This document shows positions 1,732-19,463 of a DNA stretch of 33,835 bases, piece by piece. A program made the translations under genes and the position numbers. Each line of letters begins with the position of its first letter. The stretch's first letter is position 1. The notes beneath the pieces were generated by a model. The model ran no database searches and was not told where the DNA came from. It saw nothing but the letters and a program-made list of their open reading frames with translations. Origin of the DNA: Alphaproteobacteria bacterium (GTDB lineage Bacteria > Pseudomonadota > Alphaproteobacteria > JAAEOK01); assembly GCA_024244705.1 (NCBI GenBank), contig JAAEOK010000023.1, forward strand, positions 1 through 33,835, in the 5' to 3' direction.

Positions 1732-1893
1732 CTACAAACGGACACCGGTGCCGAACTCGACCCACGGACCCCATTTGGGCGGCTCGGTCTCACCCTCGCC
1801 CGCCTTTTCGGGCGCCGCCGCGCAAGCGGCGAGCCAGCCGGCGACGAGGACGACGAGAAGGATACCGATCACTTTGCGGGGGTTCGGCCTCAT
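1732..1893 (-). CDS. small lipoprotein (53 aa)
   Basis: The frame from ATG 1893 gives a 53-residue protein: positive N-terminus (MRPNPRK), hydrophobic stretch VIGILLVVLVAGWLA, then a lipobox (LAAC) with the lipidation Cys near residue 23. The mature part is only about 30 residues, acidic then Pro/Trp-rich (EPPKWGPWVEFGTGVRL). The longer frame upstream (to 2043) looks non-coding, so the internal ATG is chosen; the ribosome site is weak. It faces acdS convergently and is divergent from the gene at 2025. No family is recognised. Small entericidin-like or LptM-like lipoproteins are comparable in size, but no homology is claimed. Confidence 0.55.
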   Translation of the reverse strand: MRPNPRKVIGILLVVLVAGWLAACAAAPEKAGEGETEPPKWGPWVEFGTGVRL

Positions 1894-2024
1894 CGCCGCA
1901 GCTTGGCCGGGTTTGCTCGGCACCTCAAGTCCGTTGGCGATCAAAACCTGTTGAAGGTGTAAGCAATAGGTTTCGTTAACCAACACCGGCGTAGGGTTGC
2001 TCCATTCACTGGGAGGGTCCCGAC

Positions 2025-2231
2025 ATGGCCAAGCAATTCGCACTCCTCGCCGGGCTCGTCGCCATCGCCGGCATCTATTTCCATGAGGAAGTCGCGAGCT
2101 TCGCGGGCGGCCTCGTCGGTATCGAGAGCGCCGAATACGGCTACGGCGCGGGCGGCACGACGGGCGCCGCGGGTGGTCTCGGGCAATCCCTCGACGGTTC
2201 CTTCACCTCGGTCGGCGGCGCGTTGCGGTAA
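2025..2231 (+). CDS. small glycine-rich protein with N-terminal hydrophobic segment (68 aa)
   Basis: ATG 2025 follows a strong GGGAGGG about ten bases upstream. Residues 4-19 (QFALLAGLVAIAGIYF) form one membrane-inserting or signal-like helix. The rest is rich in Gly, Ser, Ala and Thr and ends GGLGQSLDGSFTSVGGALR. No family is recognised. The last 36 codons are repeated about 1 kb downstream (3165-3272) at roughly 85% nucleotide identity, mostly with synonymous or conservative differences, which supports that the frame is translated. A small envelope protein is likely; its function is unknown. Confidence 0.65.
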   Translation: MAKQFALLAGLVAIAGIYFHEEVASFAGGLVGIESAEYGYGAGGTTGAAGGLGQSLDGSFTSVGGALR

Positions 2232-2365
2232 GGGCGACTTGCACCGGCCCACCGGACGCAGGAGTGGTGACGCGGGACGATGTAGCCATCGTTGCATTCC
2301 GACCGGGGCGCCCATCGACCGTTGTGCTCCCGACGTAAAGTTCCCCCGAAACATGCGCAATCCGA

Positions 2366-3066
2366 TCACGACCTGTCGACGACCGGTTTGGTCTTGCGCG
2401 GCCTTTTCCGGAACCGGTACGTGCGCAGGGTTTCGTCCAGGAGATCCTTGGCGTATTCCGGCCGGAGCCAAAACAGCAGTCTCACGCCGATCGCCGGGGC
2501 GAGAATCATCATAAAGACGGTTGCCCACCCCCCAACGGCGAGAACTGATCATGAAGCTTGTCCTCCGGCGATGGCAAGCACGCACCAAAGAAATAGGCAC
2601 AAATCGCGAATGCGGGAAATCCAATGAGAAAGAGGTGAATCGATATGAACGCCGTCAGCTTTCCATGCTGCATGAACTGTGGGGCCCGATAGACCGCCAA
2701 GGCGACCAAGCGCGCGTATGGCTCGAGGCCGAACGCGATCGTGACCAAGGCCAGGGCCGAAAAGATCCACGCCGACGACTGGACCAGGGGCGTGACTTCG
2801 GCGATGCGGATTCGATCCCTCTCCACAAGTAGTTCCTGAATTTGGCCGATGGCCGGCACTTGGGCCTTGAACCAGTCGGTCACCGAGCGCGTCTCATCGA
2901 TCCAGCCGTCGAGGATTGAGGGGAGGTATTCGAACAGCAGTTGCATTGCCAAGAAATAGGCGCCTGAGACGCAAAAAAAATAAACCAGGAGCTTGATCGG
3001 CAAATGGCTGAAAAAGCTCCGCCGGTTGTCATCGGCGTAGGCATCGAGACCGTCATTTTCGGACAT
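2366..3066 (-). CDS. hypothetical membrane protein with apparent frameshift
   Basis: From ATG 3066 (MSENDGLDAYADD) the frame runs to TGA 2509, giving 185 aa with three membrane spans: LLVYFFCVSGAYFLAMQLLF, SAWIFSALALVTIAFGL and FISIHLFLIGFPAFAICAYF. At a run of six C on the plus strand (2528-2533) a shift equivalent to one extra base opens a second frame. That frame reads GGWATVFMMILAPAIGVRLLFWL, a convincing fourth span, and a basic tail (RFRKRPRKTKPVVDRS) ending at TGA 2366. The restored protein would be 233 aa with four spans. Either the assembly lost one base in the homopolymer or the gene is naturally shifted. No family is recognised. It lies between the two copies of the glycine-rich gene, on the opposite strand. 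Confidence 0.6.
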
Positions 3067-3164
3067 GCACGCACGACCCCAGCGAGTGGCGCCCTTTGTT
3101 GACGCCGGACGATTTTTGCCACCACACCACCATACTACCACAACAAAGTAGCATTCTCGGCCTT

Positions 3165-4467: not shown

Positions 4468-5790
4468 TTAGTCCTTGCCGAGGATGGCGTCGGTGTCGCC
4501 GGCGGTCTCGCGCCCCGGCAACACCGCGTTCAAGGCCACGCCGATGAGTGCCGCCAGCGCCATGCTCGAAATTTCGGCATTTTCGCCGAACTTCAGGGCG
4601 CCGCCGCCGATGCCGATAACCAGGATCACCGAGGTGATGAGCAGGTTGCGCTTTTCGCCCAGATCGACCTTGCCCTCGATCAGGGTACGCATGCCGGAAG
4701 CGGCAATGATGCCGAACAGCGCGATAGCGGTGCCGCCCATGACGGCGACCGGGATCGAGCCGATGAAGGCGGCGACGGTGCCGACGAAGCCGAGCGCGAC
4801 GGCGAACACCGCGGCCAGGCCGACGACCCAGACGCTGAACACCCGGGTGATCGCCAGCACCCCGATATTCTCGCCGTAGGTGGTGTTTGGCGGGCCGCCG
4901 AGCAGCGCCGCCAGCATGGTCGCCAACCCGTCGCCGGCGAGCGAGCGGGCGAGCCCGGGTTTGACCAGGAAATTACGCCCGACCACCCGGCTGAGGACGA
5001 CCTGATCGCCGATATGCTCGGCGATGGTGACAATCGCGACCGGAACCAGGATCGGTAGCACCTGCCACGGGATGCCGCCGGTGGCCGCGGTTAGGCCGGT
5101 GAAGAAAAACACGAAGTCGGGAGCGCGAATCAGAGGCGCCGCCATCACCGGGGCGAAGTCGACCAAGCCGACGATGAGGGCCAGGACATAGCCGCAAACG
5201 ATCCCCGTCAATATCGGAATGACGGTGAAGAAACCGCGGAGCACCAACGAGAAGATGAGCACGGCCCCGAGCGTGAACAGGGCGACGAGGAAATGGCCGA
5301 GGCGGTATTCGCCACCGACCGCGGTGTCGGTCGCCATGCCGATGGCGACGCTGGCCAATCCAAGCCCGATGACCATGATCACCGGACCGACGACCACCGG
5401 CGGCAGCAGGCGCATCAGCCAGCCGACGCCGAACAAGCGAATCAGAACGGCGACGCACAGATAGACCAGGCCGGCGCAGAAGGCGCCGAACAGCACACCC
5501 GGCATGCCGGCGACGAGAGCGCCGACGATGATCGGTCCGATGAAGGCGAAGGAAGAGCCGAGATAGGCCGGGATGCGGCCGCCGGTCACCGCGATGTAGA
5601 GCAATGTACCGAGGCCGCTGGTCACCAGTGCCACCGCCGGGCTCAAGCCGGTCAGCAAGGGGACCAGGACGGTCGCGCCGAACATGGCGAACAGGTGCTG
5701 CAACCCGAGCAGGCCCCACAGCAGCGGCGGCGGGCGTTGGCCGGTGTCGAGAACGCGGTCGGCCCTTGGATCGGCGGGTTCGCTCGTCAT
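4468..5790 (-). CDS. uraA: uracil:proton symporter (NCS2 family, UraA/PyrP-like)
   Basis: A 440-aa inner-membrane permease for uracil (NCS2/NAT family, 14 spans). Family signatures are present: QHLFAMFGATVLVP in TM1, the SSFAFIGP hairpin in TM3, VTIAEHIGDQV with E258 (E. coli Glu241) in TM8, and GGPPNTTYGENIGVLAITR with E307 (Glu290) in TM10, both uracil-binding glutamates. The position of E. coli His245 is Asp262 here, a substitution that may alter proton coupling. Length is normal. It appears to be monocistronic; no PyrR attenuator or pyrimidine-gene neighbour is visible. Xanthine or uric-acid transport is less likely because the TTTYGEN-type signature resembles UraA rather than XanQ. Confidence 0.9.
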   Translation of the reverse strand: MTSEPADPRADRVLDTGQRPPPLLWGLLGLQHLFAMFGATVLVPLLTGLSPAVALVTSGLGTLLYIAVTGGRIPAYLGSSFAFIGPIIVGALVAGMPGVLFGAFCAGLVYLCVAVLIRLFGVGWLMRLLPPVVVGPVIMVIGLGLASVAIGMATDTAVGGEYRLGHFLVALFTLGAVLIFSLVLRGFFTVIPILTGIVCGYVLALIVGLVDFAPVMAAPLIRAPDFVFFFTGLTAATGGIPWQVLPILVPVAIVTIAEHIGDQVVLSRVVGRNFLVKPGLARSLAGDGLATMLAALLGGPPNTTYGENIGVLAITRVFSVWVVGLAAVFAVALGFVGTVAAFIGSIPVAVMGGTAIALFGIIAASGMRTLIEGKVDLGEKRNLLITSVILVIGIGGGALKFGENAEISSMALAALIGVALNAVLPGRETAGDTDAILGKD

Positions 5791-5893
5791 CGTCGCCTCA
5801 TGGCCCTTTATTGTCCGAGCGTTCTACCCTTTCTCCCGCATGACTGAAATATATTAGCGAAGATGGATCGCCCTCGGGCCGATGCCCGCTCGT

Positions 5894-6304
5894 TCATGAA
5901 TTGAGCCATGCCGCCAACTCGGCTTCGGAATCGAACACCGCGGTTTCGAAATCCTCGCCGTCATGACGCACCGGGCCGCCGACCGGCGGGCCGCCGCCCT
6001 CGCGGTTGCGCAGATAGGCGAATTTGGTGATGCCGGCCCGATTGTACCGTGGCACCGCGACCCGCGAGCGCCACGGGCCCATTGCCTCGGCGCTGGGCAC
6101 ACCGGGAGCCGGAGCGAAGTCGCGCACGTCGACGACCATCTTGGTGACCCGCAACTCGAAGCCATAGCCGGCGAAGTTGCTGAGACCTTCCTTGAAGTCG
6201 TTGTCGGTCAAGGTCCGGGCCTCCGGCTTCCACCGGAAGACGAGCGCATCGGCATCCTCGTCCAGGACGAAGTCATAGAATTGGCTTTCATATACGGTCT
6301 TCAT
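5894..6304 (-). CDS. STAS/SEC14 (SpoIIAA-like) domain protein
   Basis: 136 aa from ATG 6304, preceded by AGGAG six bases upstream. The arrangement MKTVYESQFYDFVLDEDADA - FRWKPEARTLTDNDFKEGL - KMVVDVRDF - WRSRVAVPRYNRAG - FAYLRN resembles the SpoIIAA-like STAS/SEC14 family: an edge strand, a D-x-R-D-F strand after a helix, then a conserved W-x2-x-V-x-PRYN segment. These are small cytoplasmic or membrane-associated proteins of unknown biochemical role. A longer open frame upstream lacks a ribosome site and overlaps the GST gene in another frame, so it is rejected. The gene lies 42 bp downstream of the GST gene and is probably cotranscribed with it. Confidence 0.7.
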   Translation of the reverse strand: MKTVYESQFYDFVLDEDADALVFRWKPEARTLTDNDFKEGLSNFAGYGFELRVTKMVVDVRDFAPAPGVPSAEAMGPWRSRVAVPRYNRAGITKFAYLRNREGGGPPVGGPVRHDGEDFETAVFDSEAELAAWLNS

Positions 6305-6345
6305 CGCAATCTCCTGTCGTCCGACCCTAAATCCGGTGTCGCGCC

Positions 6346-6972
6346 CTAGGCACTCTTGGCCAGGTTCTTTGGAAACGGATCGCGCCACGCGGGGAGCGCC
6401 TCCAGCGCCTCGTGCCAGCGCCGAATCTCGGGAAAGCCGGCGAGCGGCAATCCGGCACGGTCGGCGGAGGGAAGCGTCGACGCGACGGCGAAGTCGGCCA
6501 CGCTGAGCGCATCGCCGACGAGATAATCGCGGCCCTCGAGATGGCCGTTCAGGACGCCGGCAAAGTGAATGAAAAACTCGGTTGCCTCGGCGACGGCGGA
6601 CGGGTCGGGCTCGCCGAGACCGAAGGTCGGCTTGATCACGTTCTGAAACACGAATGTGCTGGCGTGACGCGAAAAATGCGCCGTGTCCCAATTGAACCAG
6701 CGGATGATATCGATCTGCCGTTCGTCGCCGGGCCACAAATCGGAGCCGGCCTTGGCGGCGAGGTAGCACATGATTGCGTTCGACTCCCAGAGCCGGAAAT
6801 CACCATCGACCAGGGTGGGGACCTTGCCGTTCGGATTGATGGCGAGGTAGCCGGGCTGCTTGTGGGCGCCGCTCTGCAGGTCGACACGCACGTATTCGAC
6901 CGGGGAGCCAAGGTGCTTGGCGACGGCACATGCTTTTCGCGGGTTCGAGGTCTCGCAGTAATACAACTTCAT
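6346..6972 (-). CDS. glutathione S-transferase family protein
   Basis: A 208-aa cytosolic enzyme. The N-terminal thioredoxin-fold domain (residues 1-80) starts MKLYYCETSNPRKACAVAKH and contains the cis-Pro loop NPNGKVPTL and the gamma-glutamyl-binding WESNAI (E-S pair). The helical C-terminal domain contains the N-capping motif GDALSVADFAVAS. The ATG at 6972 has a strong AGGAGG. Ser or Cys near the N-terminus (YCETSNPRK) would be the catalytic residue, as in beta/theta-like classes; the substrate is unknown. The gene is divergent from a TetR-family regulator with a palindrome between them, so induction by an electrophile or xenobiotic is likely. Confidence 0.88.
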   Translation of the reverse strand: MKLYYCETSNPRKACAVAKHLGSPVEYVRVDLQSGAHKQPGYLAINPNGKVPTLVDGDFRLWESNAIMCYLAAKAGSDLWPGDERQIDIIRWFNWDTAHFSRHASTFVFQNVIKPTFGLGEPDPSAVAEATEFFIHFAGVLNGHLEGRDYLVGDALSVADFAVASTLPSADRAGLPLAGFPEIRRWHEALEALPAWRDPFPKNLAKSA

Positions 6973-7015
6973 GATGTCCTCCTGTTGTTGGAGGGAGCTT
7001 GCTCATGCACAAAAT

Positions 7016-7029
7016 ATGTTCAAGAACAT
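7016..7029. promoter_or_regulatory. palindromic operator between gst and tetR
   Basis: ATGTTCAAGAACAT is a perfect inverted repeat (6-bp arms, 2-bp centre), with two further matching pairs outside one mismatch on each side. It lies 43 bp from each divergent start codon, where it could block both promoters. TetR-family dimers bind such sites, so this is probably the operator of the TetR-like protein at 7072. Confidence 0.6.
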
Positions 7030-7071
7030 TTTCTGAAATCGGTTATGATCGACCCGAAAGGATGGCAAAAC

Positions 7072-7686
7072 ATGCCCTATCGTCCTGAACACAAAGAAGA
7101 AACGCGAGCACGAATCGTCGAATGCGCGCGCCGCCTGTTCAATCGCCGCGGCTTCGCCGAGGTGACGATCGACGAGATCATGGCCAGCGCCGGCCTCACG
7201 CGGGGTGGCTTCTACAACCATTTCAAGACCAAGGACGCGCTCTATGGCGAGGCGGTGGCGAGCTATGCCGGGCGCAACCCGGCCGAGCGCTGGGACGGTG
7301 TCGAGCTCGATTTCAAGGCCCCGGGCAGGTCAGTCGCCCGTCAGATGGTCGAGGCCTATTTGTCGCAGCAGCATTTGGACGACGTCGAACATCATTGCCC
7401 GATGATCGCCCTGCCGTCGGATGTCGCCCGCGGCGGCCCGATCGTCCGCGCCGCCTATCAACAACTTCTCGAGGTCATGGTCGGGGTCTTCGAATCCGGG
7501 CTCGACCCGGACGATGCTCGGCGGCACGAAAAGGCCCTGTCGATGGCGGTGCTGTGCGTCGGCGGCATGGTCGTCGCGCGCACCGTCGACGACCCCCGAT
7601 TGCGCGACGGCCTGCGCGACGCAGCGCGACGCCTGGCGTTGTCGGTCGGACGGTACGGCGACCAGACGAGCCCCGGCCGCGATTGA
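7072..7686 (+). CDS. TetR/AcrR family transcriptional regulator
   Basis: 204 aa from ATG 7072, with AAAGGA at 7057-7062. The N-terminal helix-turn-helix (TRARIVECARRLFNRRGF, then TIDEIMASAGLTRGGFYNHF) is a typical TetR DNA-binding domain; the C-terminal ~145 residues form the ligand/dimer domain (MVEAYLSQQHLDDVEHHCPM resembles the TetR C-terminal region of xenobiotic-responsive members). An alternative start (7045) lacks a ribosome site. The gene is divergent from the GST gene and 69 bp upstream of the DUF899 gene. It likely represses GST and perhaps itself and DUF899 through the palindrome at 7016. Confidence 0.9.
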   Translation: MPYRPEHKEETRARIVECARRLFNRRGFAEVTIDEIMASAGLTRGGFYNHFKTKDALYGEAVASYAGRNPAERWDGVELDFKAPGRSVARQMVEAYLSQQHLDDVEHHCPMIALPSDVARGGPIVRAAYQQLLEVMVGVFESGLDPDDARRHEKALSMAVLCVGGMVVARTVDDPRLRDGLRDAARRLALSVGRYGDQTSPGRD

Positions 7687-7755
7687 TCGGCGGCCTACGG
7701 ACGGCGGCACCCCTTCACCCATGATTCAGCAAATCGCTTCACAGGAGAAACCATC

Positions 7756-8463
7756 ATGCCGGCACCCAAGATCGTATCCCAACAAGACTGGATCGCGGCC
7801 CGCAAGGAACACCTCGCCAAGGAGAAGGAGTTCACGCGTCTCCGCGATCGTCTCAGCGCGGAACGGCGCGACCTGCCATGGGTCAGGATCGAAAAGCAGT
7901 ACCTGTTCGACGGCCCCGACGGCAAACAGGGATTGTCCGATCTGTTCGGCGGCCACAGCCAACTGATCGTCCAGCATTTCATGTTCGGTCCCGACTGGGA
8001 GGAGGGCTGCCCGGCCTGCTCGTTCTGGGCCGACGGTTTCAACGGGTTCGTCGCCCACTTCGCCCACCGCGACGTCACCATGGTCGCGGTCTCCAACGCG
8101 GCGCTCGAAAGGCTCGACGCCTATAAGCAACGGATGGGTTGGACCTTCGCGTGGCTGTCGTCGCTGGGCAGCGATTTCAATCGTGATTTCAATGTCACGT
8201 TCACGCCGGAGGAGATCGAGTCGGAGAACGCCTTCTACAACTACGAGACCGGCGGCTTCCCGAGCACCGAGGCGCCGGGCGTCAGCGTATTTTTCAAAGA
8301 CGACCAGGGTGACATCTTCCACACCTATTCGTGCTACGCCCGCGGCTTGGACATGCTCAACGCGGCCTACCATTATCTCGACCTGGCGCCGAAGGGCCGC
8401 GACGAGGGTGATTTGTCCTTTCCCATGGCCTGGGTGCGCCGCCACGATCAATACGAGGACTGA
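7756..8463 (+). CDS. DUF899 family thioredoxin-like protein
   Basis: 235 aa; ATG 7756 follows AGGAG at 7743-7747. Family hallmarks are WIAARKEHLAKEKEFTRLRD at the N-terminus, LPWVRIEKQYLFDGPDGKQG, the CPAC motif (EEGCPACSFWADGF), and a C-terminal SVFFKDDQGDIFHTYSCYARG block ending DEGDLSFPMAWVRRHDQY. DUF899 proteins have a peroxiredoxin/thioredoxin-like fold and occur with stress and xenobiotic genes; a redox role is inferred. The GST-TetR neighbourhood supports a detoxification group. Length is normal. A small GC-rich hairpin lies just after the stop. Confidence 0.85.
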   Translation: MPAPKIVSQQDWIAARKEHLAKEKEFTRLRDRLSAERRDLPWVRIEKQYLFDGPDGKQGLSDLFGGHSQLIVQHFMFGPDWEEGCPACSFWADGFNGFVAHFAHRDVTMVAVSNAALERLDAYKQRMGWTFAWLSSLGSDFNRDFNVTFTPEEIESENAFYNYETGGFPSTEAPGVSVFFKDDQGDIFHTYSCYARGLDMLNAAYHYLDLAPKGRDEGDLSFPMAWVRRHDQYED

Positions 8464-8567
8464 CGCCCGCCGCGGGCGGTGCGCGACACCTTGATCGTTG
8501 TGTTTGTCGCGGGCCGGCGGATTTGCTAGGAAACCGGCGCGGGCGCATCCGCGCGCCGGTCTCGGCA

Positions 8568-9509
8568 ATGGGGGACGGAAAGATTAATCACGATAAGCTT
8601 TGCAGTGTCGCCGACGCCATTTCCCAATTCGTCGGCGACGGCGCCAGCATCGTCCTCGGCGCGGCGCTGGAAAACGCCATCCCCTTCGCCGCCACCCACG
8701 AATTGATCCGCCAGGGCCGGCGCGATCTCAACCTGATCGCACCGATCTCGGACATTTCCACCGACATGCTGATCGGCGCCGGCTGCGTCGCCGAAGTCAC
8801 CGGGGCGTGGGTCGGCAACGTATCCGGCGGTATGGGCCACAACTACCGCCGCGCCGCCGAGGGCGGCCAGCCCCACCCGATCAAGATCCACGACTACTCG
8901 AATTTCACCATCGGCATGGCGTTCTTCGCCGGCGCCTACGGACTACCCTACATCCCGGTCAAATCGATCCTCGGTTCCGACATCATCAAGTCGAATCCGC
9001 GCATTCGGCTGGCGGAAAACCCGTTCACGGAAGAACCGGACCCGGTCGCCCTGATCCCGGCGCTGAAGCCCGATATCGCCTTCCTCGTCGTGCAGCGCGC
9101 CGACCGTTTTGGCAATTCCCACATCTGGGGTTCGACCGGCCTGACCCAGGAAGCGTCGATCGCGGCCGAAAAGATCATCGTGCTTGCCGACGAGATCGTC
9201 GAACCGGAGGTCATCGCCTCGGATCCCAGCCGGGTGCTCATACCCGGCTTCGGCGTCAACGCCGTGTGCCATGTTCCGGCCGCCTGCCATCCGGCGCCGC
9301 TGATCGGGCGCTGGAAACGGGACAACGCCTTCTTTCACGACTATCACAAGGAAACCCGCGATCCCGAGAGCTTCGATCGCTGGTGCGACGAATGGGTGCG
9401 CGACCTGCCCGACCACGAAGCCTACCGCACCAAGCTGGGCGGTCAGCTCGAGGAACTGCGCATTCTCGGTGACGCGCCCTCGGCGCCCGCCAACTATGCG
9501 ACGGAGTGA
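8568..9509 (+). CDS. CoA-transferase family, subunit A (glutaconate-CoA-transferase/IpdA-like)
   Basis: 313 aa from ATG 8568. Family I CoA-transferase alpha-type features are FVGDGASIVLGAALENAIPF at the N-terminus, LIAPISDISTDMLIGAG, and the middle block DIIKSNPRIRLAENPFT. The mature enzyme needs the downstream beta-type subunit. Such pairs move CoA between acyl groups or, in the IpdAB branch, hydrolytically open a ring in steroid breakdown; the substrate cannot be assigned here. ATG 8568 is preferred over TTG 8523 because it fits the family N-terminus, although its ribosome site is weak. The stop overlaps the next gene's likely start. Confidence 0.85.
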   Translation: MGDGKINHDKLCSVADAISQFVGDGASIVLGAALENAIPFAATHELIRQGRRDLNLIAPISDISTDMLIGAGCVAEVTGAWVGNVSGGMGHNYRRAAEGGQPHPIKIHDYSNFTIGMAFFAGAYGLPYIPVKSILGSDIIKSNPRIRLAENPFTEEPDPVALIPALKPDIAFLVVQRADRFGNSHIWGSTGLTQEASIAAEKIIVLADEIVEPEVIASDPSRVLIPGFGVNAVCHVPAACHPAPLIGRWKRDNAFFHDYHKETRDPESFDRWCDEWVRDLPDHEAYRTKLGGQLEELRILGDAPSAPANYATE

Positions 9510-15860: not shown

Positions 15861-17882
15861 ATGGCTGGAACGTGGACGACCCTCAACAATTTGCCTGCAG
15901 TCCCTGTAGAAACGACCTTTCTGCTCACCGACGGGACCGTGCTGGCGCAGGGCGTGAGCACGAATCAATGGTACAAGCTGACGCCGGATGCCAACGGCAA
16001 CTATGTCAACGGCACCTGGTCGACGATGGCGAGCAGTACCAACGCGCCGCTCTATTATGCGTCGGGGATTCTGCGTGACGGCCGGCTGATCGTCGCCGGC
16101 GGCGAGTACAACTCCGGCGCCCTGGTCTGGCTCAACGCGGCCGAGATGTACAACCCCGTTGCCGATAGCTGGACCAACCTGCCGACCCCGGCGGGCTGGG
16201 CACGGATCGGCGATGCGCCGGGATGCGTCTTGCCCGATGGCCGCTTCTTCCTCGGCGAGGTCGGCACCCGACGTACCGCGATCTACAATCCCACCACCAA
16301 CGCGTGGACCGCGAGCGCCAACAAGATCTCGACCGTCGGCGAGGAAAGCTGGTCGCTGTTGCCCGACGGCAGTATCCATGCCGTCGATTGCTCGAACCCG
16401 CCCAACGCGGAGAAGTACATCATCGCCGCCAATCAATGGGTCAATGCCGGCGCCACGCCCCAGGTCCTGGTCGACAGCATTTCGGAGATCGGCGCCTCCG
16501 TGCTGCTCCCCGATGGCCGGCTCTATGTCATCGGCGCGACCGGCTTCACCGCGCTCTATACCTTTCCACCGATCGCCAACCAGGTCGGCACATGGGCGTC
16601 GGGACCCAATATCCCGCAGGTCAATCCGGGTCAGGCTTTGGGCGCGGTCGACGCGCCGGCGGCGCTGTTGCCGAACGGCAAGGTGCTGTTCACGGCGGGT
16701 CCGATCACGACGCCCGCGACTTTCCAGGCGCCCACCTTCTTCTTCGAGTTCGACCCGGTGACCGACACCACGGCGGCGGTTCCCCTGCCGGTGAACTCGG
16801 CTTCCACCCCTTTTTGGGGACGCATGCTGATGCTCCCGACCGGCCAGGTGCTCTATACCGACGGCGCTGCCCAGGCCGACGGCAGCATCGAGGTCGAGGT
16901 CTATACGCCGGACGGAACCTACGACCCGCGCTGGCGACCGTCGATCACCACCTGTCCCGGTAATCTCGAACCGGGCAACACCTATACGCTCGCCGGCCGG
17001 CAGATCAATGGCCTGTCGCAGTGTATTTACTACGGCAACGACGCTACCCAGGCCACCAACTACCCCATCGTGCGCCTCGAATCGAAGTCGAGCGCACGCA
17101 TCGTTTATTGCCGCAGTTTCGATTTCTCGACGATGGGGCTGCAGACCGGAACGGTGATCCATACCTGCAGTTTCACGGTGCCCGATGGAACCCCGACCGG
17201 CGCCTACCGGCTGGTCGTCGTCGCCAACGGAATCCCGTCGGAGCCCTGTGACACGACGGTGTCGCTCAAGAGGTTCAAGGAACTCAAGATCGAGATCAAG
17301 GAGAAGACCGAGATCAAGGAGAAGGCCGAGGTCAAGGAAAAGGCCGAGGTCAAGGAAAAGACGGAGAAAGTGGAAGTCCTCGACAAAGACCCGAAAACCG
17401 AAAAGAACGAGAAGCTGGAAAAGGGCGAGATCAAGGAGTCGAAATTCGAGATCGGCGAGAAAAACACCGGCAAGGAAAGGTTCGAGGTCGACATCGAAAG
17501 GAAGCTTCGGGACGAAATCGACCAAACCCAACTGACCCAGGAGAACTGGCTGCAAACGGTGAGAACGTTCGCCGCCCAGTTGGATGCCGCGCACGAGGAG
17601 CTCGACCGCGCCTTCATCCGCCCCGAAGAACGTCCGGAAGTCAGACCGAAGAAGGTCGTCGTCGAGAAGATATACCCCAAGAAGATCAGCGCCGCGCAGG
17701 CTCGAAAGGGCGCGGAGAAACGGGCCTTCAACGACGGACGCAAGGAATTGGCGGTATCGAAGAGCGCCGCCGCGTTCCGCGACGTGGTGCACACGCTTTC
17801 GCATCCGGACAAGGGCAAAGGCAAAGGAGCGACGAAGGGTCGAAAGGTCAAGCGCGCCAGGAAGCCGAGCAAGGGTAAGTGA
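15861..17882 (+). CDS. kelch/galactose-oxidase-like beta-propeller protein with Lys/Glu-repeat tail
   Basis: 673 aa from ATG 15861 (AAAGG eight bases upstream). Residues 1-340 are kelch-type blades with recurring LLPDGR, LRDGRLIVAGG, LLPNGKVLFTAG and MYNPVADSW-like turns. Residues ~370-467 form a DUF1929-like Ig domain (YTPDGTYDPRWRPSI ... PTGAYRLVVVANGIPS). Residues 470-549 are a highly charged Lys/Glu tail with four perfect hexapeptide repeats at 479-502. The last ~110 residues are basic, ending RKVKRARKPSKGK. No signal peptide is seen, and the galactose-oxidase copper ligands (Cys-Tyr cofactor) cannot be assigned, so oxidase activity is unproven. It heads a three-gene set with two ATP-grasp-related genes that may act on its tail (inference). 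Confidence 0.85.
   Translation: MAGTWTTLNNLPAVPVETTFLLTDGTVLAQGVSTNQWYKLTPDANGNYVNGTWSTMASSTNAPLYYASGILRDGRLIVAGGEYNSGALVWLNAAEMYNPVADSWTNLPTPAGWARIGDAPGCVLPDGRFFLGEVGTRRTAIYNPTTNAWTASANKISTVGEESWSLLPDGSIHAVDCSNPPNAEKYIIAANQWVNAGATPQVLVDSISEIGASVLLPDGRLYVIGATGFTALYTFPPIANQVGTWASGPNIPQVNPGQALGAVDAPAALLPNGKVLFTAGPITTPATFQAPTFFFEFDPVTDTTAAVPLPVNSASTPFWGRMLMLPTGQVLYTDGAAQADGSIEVEVYTPDGTYDPRWRPSITTCPGNLEPGNTYTLAGRQINGLSQCIYYGNDATQATNYPIVRLESKSSARIVYCRSFDFSTMGLQTGTVIHTCSFTVPDGTPTGAYRLVVVANGIPSEPCDTTVSLKRFKELKIEIKEKTEIKEKAEVKEKAEVKEKTEKVEVLDKDPKTEKNEKLEKGEIKESKFEIGEKNTGKERFEVDIERKLRDEIDQTQLTQENWLQTVRTFAAQLDAAHEELDRAFIRPEERPEVRPKKVVVEKIYPKKISAAQARKGAEKRAFNDGRKELAVSKSAAAFRDVVHTLSHPDKGKGKGATKGRKVKRARKPSKGK
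17295..17366 (+). repeat. four tandem 18-bp repeats encoding a KEK hexapeptide
   Basis: The 72 bp encode IKEKTE, IKEKAE, VKEKAE and VKEKTE in register. Copies differ only in a few bases (for example ATC/GTC and ACC/GCC), so the array is recent or kept uniform. It lies in the tail of the kelch protein. Confidence 0.9.
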
Positions 17883-17913
17883 TGCGGCGGGTGGGCATGG
17901 CGCCGCCGCCTGA

Positions 17914-18591
17914 ATGATCGTTGTCGTCGGGAGTCGCCACGACACGGTGGCGACGGGGTTGGTCGCGTCGTGGCCGGATGCCCGCCTTTGTGCCGCGGAA
18001 GATCTCGTCCGGCCGGGTTGGCGGTGGCATGTCGGCCGCGCCGAGGTGCCGCTATGGGTGGTTGACGGGCGAATAGTACCGGATGACCACGTTTCGGGCG
18101 TTTTTGTCCGTCGCTCGACCGTTTATCCGGAAGAGTTGGTGACCACCCATACCGACGACCGAAAATTTCTCGCCACCGAGTGTCGGGCATTCCTGGCCCT
18201 GATTTTATCGGCGACCGGCGCGCGGGTCGTCAATCCGGTGTTCGACGGCGCCTTCGGCGGCGAGGCCTTGCGGCCCGAACGCTGGACCGCGGAGGCGCTG
18301 AGGCTGGGCTTCGAACCCTACCCCTACCGCATCACCAGCGCACCGCGACGGCGGCGGCCACCGCAGGCAACGCACTATGTTGAAGTCGTCGGGGACGACG
18401 TCTTCGGGCGCGGTCCCAAGAAAGTCATCGAGGCGGCGCGCGCGGTTGCCGGGGCGGTCGGACTGGCGTGGGCGGCGGTCGCCTTCGACCGCCGGCGCCG
18501 CATCCTCGGGGTAACTTGTGACAGCCCGCCGGGCGCAAGCGCCGCGACGGCGCTCGGCCGCCTTCTCATGAACAGGACTGGAACCGAATGA
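17914..18591 (+). CDS. probable ATP-grasp-related pseudoenzyme (225 aa)
   Basis: The first ATG (17914) directly follows an in-frame stop, fixing the start; the stop overlaps the next gene as ATGA. By eye it aligns with the next gene's protein: MIVVVGSRHD with MILVWGSLDD, GVFVRRS with GFYLRPG, ARVVNPVFDG with GVLNRPAAG, AEALRLGFEPYPYRIT with RLIAEAGFDVPPTLLT, THYVEVVGD with VRVHVVGD, and GLAWAAVAFD...GVTCDSPPG with GLRLAGVDLR...CFEVNPSPG. The ~55 residues holding the ATP-binding Lys are missing, and the metal-binding E and N are replaced by T201 and D203. It is probably a non-catalytic partner or regulatory subunit of the ATP-grasp enzyme. Confidence 0.65.
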   Translation: MIVVVGSRHDTVATGLVASWPDARLCAAEDLVRPGWRWHVGRAEVPLWVVDGRIVPDDHVSGVFVRRSTVYPEELVTTHTDDRKFLATECRAFLALILSATGARVVNPVFDGAFGGEALRPERWTAEALRLGFEPYPYRITSAPRRRRPPQATHYVEVVGDDVFGRGPKKVIEAARAVAGAVGLAWAAVAFDRRRRILGVTCDSPPGASAATALGRLLMNRTGTE

Positions 18592-19463
18592 TCCTGGTCT
18601 GGGGATCGCTCGACGATGCTCCGGTCGCGCGCGTCGTCACTGCGCTCAAGGCACAGGCCGCGACCCTGGTCCATTTCGACGATTCCGCACTGGGCGAAAT
18701 CGCGTTCGACTTCGTTTTCGGTCCCGTTATCGCCGGCTGGCTCGAAGTGAAGGGCCGCAGAATCGAAATTTCGGAGATCCAAGGTTTTTATCTCCGGCCC
18801 GGCGAGCCCGATGCGGGCGCCCCTGCTCGGACGGCTCAGGCTTTGATTACGCTCGCCTCGGGGCTGCCGCAGGGCGTCCTCAACCGGCCGGCCGCGGGCC
18901 TCTCCAACCACGCCAAACCCTACCAGCTAAGATTGATCGCCGAGGCCGGCTTCGACGTTCCGCCAACGCTGCTGACGACCGATTCCGAGGCGGCGCGGTC
19001 GTTCCTCCGCGAACACGGCCGTATCGTCTATAAATCGCTGAGCGGCATTCGAAGCATCGTCGCGACACTGGAAGAAGGCGACGAGGCGCGGCTCGACCGC
19101 GTCCGGTCCGGCCCGGTCCAGCTGCAAGCCTGGGTCGACGGTATCGACGTGCGTGTCCACGTCGTCGGCGACCGGTGGTTTGCCTGCGCGGTGCGCTCGT
19201 CGGCCAGCGACTATCGTTACGCTGCAGAGGGGGAAGCGGCGGAGCTCTCGGCCCTCGAGCTACCGGTGGCGATCGGGCGGCGCATCGTCGACTTGGCGCA
19301 CGGCATGGGATTGCGGCTGGCCGGCGTGGATCTGCGGCTGACACCCGAAGGCTCGTGGGTCTGCTTCGAGGTCAACCCGTCGCCCGGCTTTACCTGGTAT
19401 GAGGGCGCCACCGGTCACCCCATCGCCGCCGCGATCGCGGCTGAGCTCATCGGCCGGCCCTAG
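18588..19463 (+). CDS. ATP-grasp ligase (RimK/MvdD-like)
   Basis: 291 aa; overlaps the preceding gene by four bases. A short pre-ATP-grasp N-terminal domain (1-105) is followed by NHAKPYQLRLIAEAGFDVPP (108-126), the typical entry to an ATP-grasp domain. IVYKSLSG carries the ATP-binding K149, LQAWVDGIDVRVHVVGDRW (179-197) follows, then AGVDLRL with D248 and CFEVNPSPGF with E261 and N263 as metal ligands, the family signature. ATP-grasp enzymes form amide, ester or peptide bonds via acyl phosphates. Homologues such as RimK, MvdC and MvdD act on peptides or proteins; with the KEK-repeat kelch protein as operon head, protein side-chain or tail modification is the leading hypothesis. The substrate is not shown. 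Confidence 0.8.
   Translation: MILVWGSLDDAPVARVVTALKAQAATLVHFDDSALGEIAFDFVFGPVIAGWLEVKGRRIEISEIQGFYLRPGEPDAGAPARTAQALITLASGLPQGVLNRPAAGLSNHAKPYQLRLIAEAGFDVPPTLLTTDSEAARSFLREHGRIVYKSLSGIRSIVATLEEGDEARLDRVRSGPVQLQAWVDGIDVRVHVVGDRWFACAVRSSASDYRYAAEGEAAELSALELPVAIGRRIVDLAHGMGLRLAGVDLRLTPEGSWVCFEVNPSPGFTWYEGATGHPIAAAIAAELIGRP

Follow-up and report, generated by a model that had tools for sequence, protein, structure and literature searches.

A kelch protein tail as candidate substrate of an adjoining graspetide-synthetase-like ATP-grasp pair

Positions 1 to 33,835 of contig JAAEOK010000023.1 from an alphaproteobacterial assembly (GCA_024244705.1; hereafter the window) contain three adjacent genes that encode a kelch-type propeller protein with a charged C-terminal tail and two ATP-grasp proteins, P0002 and P0003. 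The locus raises the question of what the ATP-grasp pair acts upon. A published survey of graspetide enzymes described a branch (branch 8) in which an active ATP-grasp is accompanied by a truncated, inactive ATP-grasp and by peptidases of unrelated families; no precursor could be predicted, and the peptidases were suggested to release peptides from elsewhere (Makarova et al., 2022; PMC8939145). That branch was thus left without a substrate, a gap that a testable substrate within the neighboring protein would close. From sequence comparisons, we consider it fairly probable that these genes make up a cassette of substrate and synthetase in which the pair would cross-link a motif-guided array in the tail of the kelch protein.

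A tail module on proteins beside the pair

The three genes lie in tight order, with a 31-bp gap followed by an ATGA overlap between P0002 and P0003, exactly as described in the original prediction, which had been made from the window's sequence without database searches. The kelch protein matched Kelch_1/Kelch_6 above the Pfam cut-off, and the C-terminal part of residues 1-472 appears to be beta-sandwich-like. Hydropathy analysis of its N-terminus revealed no hydrophobic signal peptide at the start. The tail begins with an 82-residue array (21 K, 22 E, 5 D and 5 S/T) containing the four perfect [IV]KEK[TA]E hexads noted earlier (IKEKTE-IKEKAE-VKEKAE-VKEKTE). These were recovered both by translation and with Tandem Repeats Finder (TRF), which placed an 18-bp array of 4.6 copies at 17286-17367 (score 108), the top tandem repeat of the window. 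A second conserved element, FIRPEERP, had been overlooked.

Relatives were sought with P0003 in 84,980 species genomes, yielding 28; a further locus each from an alphaproteobacterial, an Armatimonadota and a cyanobacterial genome came from whole-genome searches. Since loci were found through the ATP-grasp, the set of 32 readable pair loci used for comparison (numbered with the prefix L) was not selected for tails. A tail-bearing protein, or carrier, adjoined the pair in 32/32 of them, and the kelch-partner-ligase order recurred in Dyella silvae (Gammaproteobacteria) and in a Chthonomonas metagenome-assembled genome (Armatimonadota), so that the co-occurrence by which the original prediction had proposed to check itself was found. 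The carriers belong to unrelated families, namely kelch proteins, M6, S8 and C13-type peptidases, DUF6519 proteins and proteins without a family, and range from about 170 to over 900 residues. What they have in common is a module with the motif F-[IV]-x4-R-P at fixed spacing, to which most add an array rich in Lys, Glu and Asp and many a short coil (e.g., RLxxLE..., by visual comparison of the tails). The motif was exact in 31/32 carriers, L039 having P in place of F, and occurred in 6/618 background open reading frames (ORFs) and, within the last 110 residues, in 1/618. It was mostly C-terminal, being N-terminal only in L122 and L125.

The arrays span 10 to 218 residues and consist of 29% K, 31% E+D and 3% S+T, compared with 2%, 10% and 11%, respectively, in background ORFs. 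Relative to shuffled arrays, K followed by E/D was enriched at +1 (z=26) and +4 (z=8), and E/D followed by K at +4 was depleted (z=-6.4). Judged by residue spacing, the arrays follow a K-[ED]-x pattern and not that of the usual salt-bridged single helix.

Homologs lacking a nearby pair were used as controls, and both array and motif were absent from 14/14. Ten kelch loci of the Dyella family without an adjacent pair, 37-51% identical to the window protein in the kelch part (residues 1-472), had array or motif in 0/10, and the nine genomes from which they come contained no close relative of P0003. Among five close M6 peptidases of Streptomycetaceae, three had tail and pair and two (62-63% identical) had neither; these two keep the coil without array or motif, and their genomes hold just a distant graspetide synthetase. 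DUF6519 proteins adjoining a pair possessed the motif in 6/6 cases, whereas in the injection-system loci of Dyella and of the window's genome, where they do not adjoin a pair, array or motif was present in 0/2. Presence with the pair and absence in homologs without it indicate that the tail follows the pair and not the cargo family. Taken as a whole, the cassette is conserved, array and motif are common to unrelated cargos, and both are absent without the pair; the genetic evidence that the tail would be the substrate is strong. The earlier suggestion that the tail is the substrate thus gained from the co-occurrence and from the pair-less controls; the perfect hexads that it described are a single form of a K-[ED]-x array that is less strict overall.

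The carriers of L122 (Armatimonadota) and L125 (Elioraea) are small proteins encoded downstream of the pair, with little beyond motif, array and coil. Both begin with the motif (MANEPFIDPQSRPDL..., ...KQPFVGAADRPEV...), after which comes an extended array of K-[ED]-x or E-K-x type (KDHKDTKDQKDHKEPKD..., EKPEKSEKIEKNEKHEK...). This leader-core layout is the main reason for reading the motif as a putative recognition element and the array as the core. Set against a published leader motif, 'Phh[x1-2]h', the M6 and N-terminal forms read P-F-[IV]..., with different spacing to the next hydrophobic residue, and the window has A-F-I-R-P. Beside the L122 carrier, a second small protein is encoded at 2404-2784 on the reverse strand, whose segments DMSVRDLLTLLG and DLKVSDLLQLIA resemble the carrier segment DLSVRQLSDVLG; it is possibly a second substrate or a partner.

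Group-specific features were also observed. M6 carriers of Streptomycetaceae (L028, L029, L030, L033, L038, L051) end in AKR-x-[FY]-D. S8 carriers of the Roseobacter group and Psychrobacter (L041, L042, L046-L049, L053, L054) have a K-D-rich end terminating in E-x-F or E-G-F. These conserved ends, which lie after the motif, might serve as additional sites of modification or as signals for cleavage. The longest array, of 218 residues, occupies residues 499-716 of the Psychrobacter S8 carrier of L048 and contains near-perfect repeats around KEKERLKERIKDI.

Table 1. Features of the kelch/ATP-grasp locus, in window coordinates.
Feature	Position	Strand	Basis or remark
Kelch ORF	15861-17882	+	673 aa from ATG; then 31-bp gap to pseudo-ATP-grasp ORF
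Propeller (kelch-type) plus beta-sandwich-like C-terminal part, residues 1-472; cargo domain	15861..17276	+	Pfam Kelch_1/Kelch_6
Lys/Glu-rich array, residues 473-554; predicted modification site	17277..17522	+	Composition, TRF repeat, comparison of carrier arrays
Predicted coil segment separating array from motif	17523..17612	+	Tails compared by eye; inference
FIRPEERP (F-[IV]-x4-R-P), residues 585-592; predicted to be recognized by the ATP-grasp pair	17613-17636	+	Motif counts across loci
Basic C-terminal end of kelch protein, residues 593-673; differs among loci	17637..17879	+	Sequence
P0002, pseudo-ATP-grasp partner, 225 aa	17914..18591	+	hhalign, AlphaFold2 (AF2) model, residue check
P0003, graspetide-synthetase-like ATP-grasp ligase, catalytic residues intact, 291 aa	18588..19463	+	TIGR04187, PsnB match, AF2 model, residue check

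The intact ATP-grasp and its degenerate partner

P0003 contains a RimK domain above the Pfam cut-off and matched TIGR04187, a graspetide maturase family of NCBIfam, at 151.4 bits (E 3e-44) against a curated cut-off of 350 bits; it is a relative of this named subfamily and not a member. The RimK family profile TIGR00768 scored 52 bits. Against the sequences of solved structures, P0003 matched PsnB (7drm) with E 7e-45 and RimK with E about 1e-11, and its AF2 model (predicted local distance difference test, pLDDT, 89.1) gave Z scores of 26.6 to PruB, 25.9 to MdnC, 25.6 to PsnB and 23.4 to RimK. The protein has the layout of a graspetide synthetase, a pre-ATP-grasp N-terminal domain followed by an ATP-grasp domain with ATP- and Mg-binding residues, and the nine catalytic residues checked were retained in 15/15 active relatives.

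P0002 had no family match at the usual thresholds in Pfam or NCBIfam. When the two families were aligned with hhalign (E 5e-14), a large central gap covered the ATP-binding part of P0003, and the AF2 model of P0002 (pLDDT 81.5) gave Z 16.2 over 216 residues to MdnC in complex with its precursor MdnA. P0002 lacks Lys110, Lys149, D-x-R, Asp248, Glu261 and Asn263 (P0003 numbering), and the first three of these were kept by 0/14 partner proteins. The partners from the Elioraea and Armatimonadota genomes are longer (317 and 297 residues, respectively) and appear less degraded. Alignment and model together suggest that P0002 has a graspetide-synthetase (macrocyclase) fold from which the central ATP-binding part was deleted, with all checked catalytic residues lost. 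Residue comparison thus bore out the proposal of one catalytically intact and one apparently dead ATP-grasp. Because of its fold, its constant company with P0003 and the precedent of partner-dependent synthetases (PMC13097080), P0002 may be a docking or allosteric partner of P0003.

Proposed reaction and competing explanations

We propose that P0003, assisted by P0002, would recognize F-[IV]-x4-R-P on the kelch protein and phosphorylate Glu/Asp side chains in the adjacent array. The activated residues would be joined to Lys amines, producing intramolecular and possibly also intermolecular isopeptide cross-links through which the array, otherwise flexible and charged, would become a stapled rod. 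The module would amount to a natural graspetide core plus recognition sequence fused to a folded cargo and placed on kelch proteins, M6, S8 and C13 peptidases, and DUF6519 proteins. The few Ser/Thr residues in the arrays suggest lactam rather than ester bonds. We infer the modification itself, the Lys-Glu/Asp lactam, binding of the motif by P0002 and the purpose of a stapled tail. When the carriers are set against graspetide precursors, they are genetically linked to the synthetase and contain repeated candidate donor (Glu/Asp) and acceptor (Lys) residues, L027 and L124 excepted, and F[IV]x4RP would provide the conserved recognition sequence. They are not short, dedicated precursors with an N-terminal leader.

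Several observations weigh against a stapled array. L027 and L124 carry the motif without a K/E array, and several DUF6519 carriers have an array of just 10 residues (KGKDKDKDKE); modification may therefore take place elsewhere in addition to, or instead of, the array. Array layouts also vary, being K-E-x in M6 carriers, E-K-rich with 3- or 6-residue periods in kelch carriers and L125, and partly 4-residue in S8 carriers; no single linkage pattern is therefore conserved between groups. Moreover, since many carriers are related within their group, independent events are far fewer than 32 loci. The tail might instead be the substrate with the K/E array as a mere spacer, ester or amide links being made near F[IV]x4RP or at the C-terminal end, for example where M6 and S8 carriers terminate in AKR-x-F-D-T or K-D-x-K-D-T-E. 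A motif more constant than the array and the similar Lys/Asp/Thr-containing ends of those two groups speak for such a scheme. We nevertheless regard it as unlikely, given that these ends are not common to DUF6519, L027 or kelch carriers, that L122 and L125 place motif and array as leader and core would be placed, and that the arrays are balanced in Lys versus Glu/Asp and depleted in Ser/Thr.

The explanation published for branches 7 and 8 holds that neighboring peptidases feed peptides to the ATP-grasp, whose target is encoded elsewhere (Makarova et al., 2022; PMC8939145); the charged tail would then only dock the neighbor to the enzymes. This is improbable for the loci examined here, where non-peptidases (kelch, DUF6519) bear this tail too, as do two small proteins consisting of little more than motif, array and coil, and where peptidase homologs without the pair lack it. 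Still less probable is a RimK-like ligation, in which P0003 would extend the tail, at its C-terminus or on side chains, by amino acids such as glutamates. The Pfam RimK match and the good fit of RimK structures are in keeping with it, yet sequence and profile matches favor graspetide synthetases, and the carriers have no common C-terminal residue. Of the two modifications that the original prediction had entertained, cross-linking is accordingly favored over polyglutamylation, P0003 being closest to graspetide synthetases and not to RimK. K/E-rich linkers are common among bacteria, and the array could in principle be just such a linker, of low complexity or forming a plain charged single alpha-helix, that is independent of the enzymes, but such a chance neighborhood is already refuted by the linkage, the fixed-spacing motif and the absence of the tail from pair-less homologs, and E/D-to-K at +3/+4, the spacing expected of a salt-bridged single helix, was not enriched, so that the single-helix reading was rejected.

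The proposal of motif-guided stapling may extend further, and we find a wider version plausible without quite favoring it: a natural, mobile protein-tail stapling in which a synthetase plus pseudoenzyme, a portable F[IV]x4RP tag and K-[E/D]-x arrays would build rod-like isopeptide ladders on propellers, peptidases and contractile-injection proteins, as a general means to rigidify, protect or assemble whole proteins.

Distribution, genomic setting and known systems

The P0003 family is rare, with a close member in 2/385 alphaproteobacterial genomes, one of them the window's genome. The pair and its tail carriers occur in at least five phyla. Phylogenetic analysis placed the window ATP-grasp and its relatives in one clade apart from ordinary graspetide synthetases (support 96/97). 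A single origin of the kelch cassette was considered and rejected, as kelch-linked ATP-grasps did not group together in the tree (3 changes for 3 rows); cargo was probably joined to the module, or swapped, more than once. Searches of plasmids returned nothing beyond ordinary graspetide synthetases and kelch proteins that are distant.

Hydropathy, a crude test with some carrier starts uncertain, identified no carrier with a convincing Sec signal peptide; by the same test, 6/9 kelch homologs without the pair had one. Many genomes that have kelch or DUF6519 carriers also contain contractile injection genes, and an injection-system operon ends with the DUF6519 carrier and pair in Variovorax and Methylocystis. 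The Pvc16 family is found in the window's genome, on a different contig, and in many kelch and DUF6519 genomes. An obligatory tie to these systems was rejected: Pvc16 is absent from the Roseovarius, Psychrobacter, Cellulomonas, Microlunatus and Armatimonadota pair genomes and is also present in kelch genomes without the pair. Because this marker is missing from most pair genomes whose carrier is an M6 or S8 protein, the injection link belongs to some cargos and not to the pair.

On contig C73 of the window's genome, at about 137-166 kb (L165-L166, L173), sheath, tube, Pvc16-type, AAA ATPase and baseplate-like genes are followed by a DUF6519-like protein without the tail motif and then by a 144-residue protein with a lysine-rich end. 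The closest pair-less kelch homolog (about 50% identity; L126, genome G951) is encoded at 4620-6380, has a different basic tail and is flanked by injection-system-like genes at 1834-3105 and 6929-8893, a position suggesting that the kelch family may be injection cargo.

If the proposal is correct, graspetide chemistry extends from small peptides to the tails of large folded proteins, a pseudo-ATP-grasp acquires a natural role, a portable tag for cross-linking proteins becomes available, and the peptidases at pair loci are cargo and not processing enzymes. A 2026 survey interpreted the diverse proteases adjoining some graspetide groups as maturation or resistance proteins (PMC13097080). Our literature search, which left most subscription papers outside its reach, found nothing on an ATP-grasp with kelch, DUF6519 or contractile injection.

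P0003 resembles the TIGR04187/SAV_5884-type and PsnB-type synthetases (PsnB, PruB, MdnB/C) in fold, catalytic residues and best sequence matches, but those enzymes act on short precursors with an N-terminal leader, whereas its family forms a clade of its own with a dead partner. RimK is likewise an ATP-grasp ligase working on a protein tail; it differs in adding glutamates to the C-terminus, in having no dead partner and in its weaker match. The graspetide synthetase ThfB accepts a leader moved to the C-terminal side of the core and yields cyclized and cross-linked proteins (PMC13003496). In the engineered ThfA of that work, a recognition sequence behind the core still directs cross-linking, as proposed for the carriers; in these, nature itself has put the sequence at the C-terminal side and joined it to an entire folded protein. 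Also known are a large repeat graspetide with Lys isopeptides and a synthetase dependent on a partner protein (PMC13097080). Corallotide and rosaritide resemble the cassette as proposed, in that Lys isopeptide rings recur along a large precursor and the synthetase needs a partner protein; there, however, the partners are a 2-oxoglutarate oxygenase and a PpiC-like protein, and the precursor is a dedicated peptide instead of a cargo protein.

The closest precedent is branch 8, to which the window pair would belong according to the published description only. Like branch 8, the pair consists of an active graspetide-type ATP-grasp beside a truncated, inactive one, with no separate precursor peptide. 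Unlike branch 8 as described, the likely substrate in pair loci is a tail of the neighboring protein; the carriers extend to kelch and DUF6519 proteins, and the dead partner retains a remnant of the C-terminal part as well. According to the original prediction, the combination is not known as a described system, and this holds for the substrate, since the enzyme half was already included in branch 8. From these comparisons, the system is best read as graspetide biosynthesis acting on whole proteins, which would answer the published question of the branch 8 substrate and suggests that bacteria staple the tails of whole proteins as they staple small peptides.

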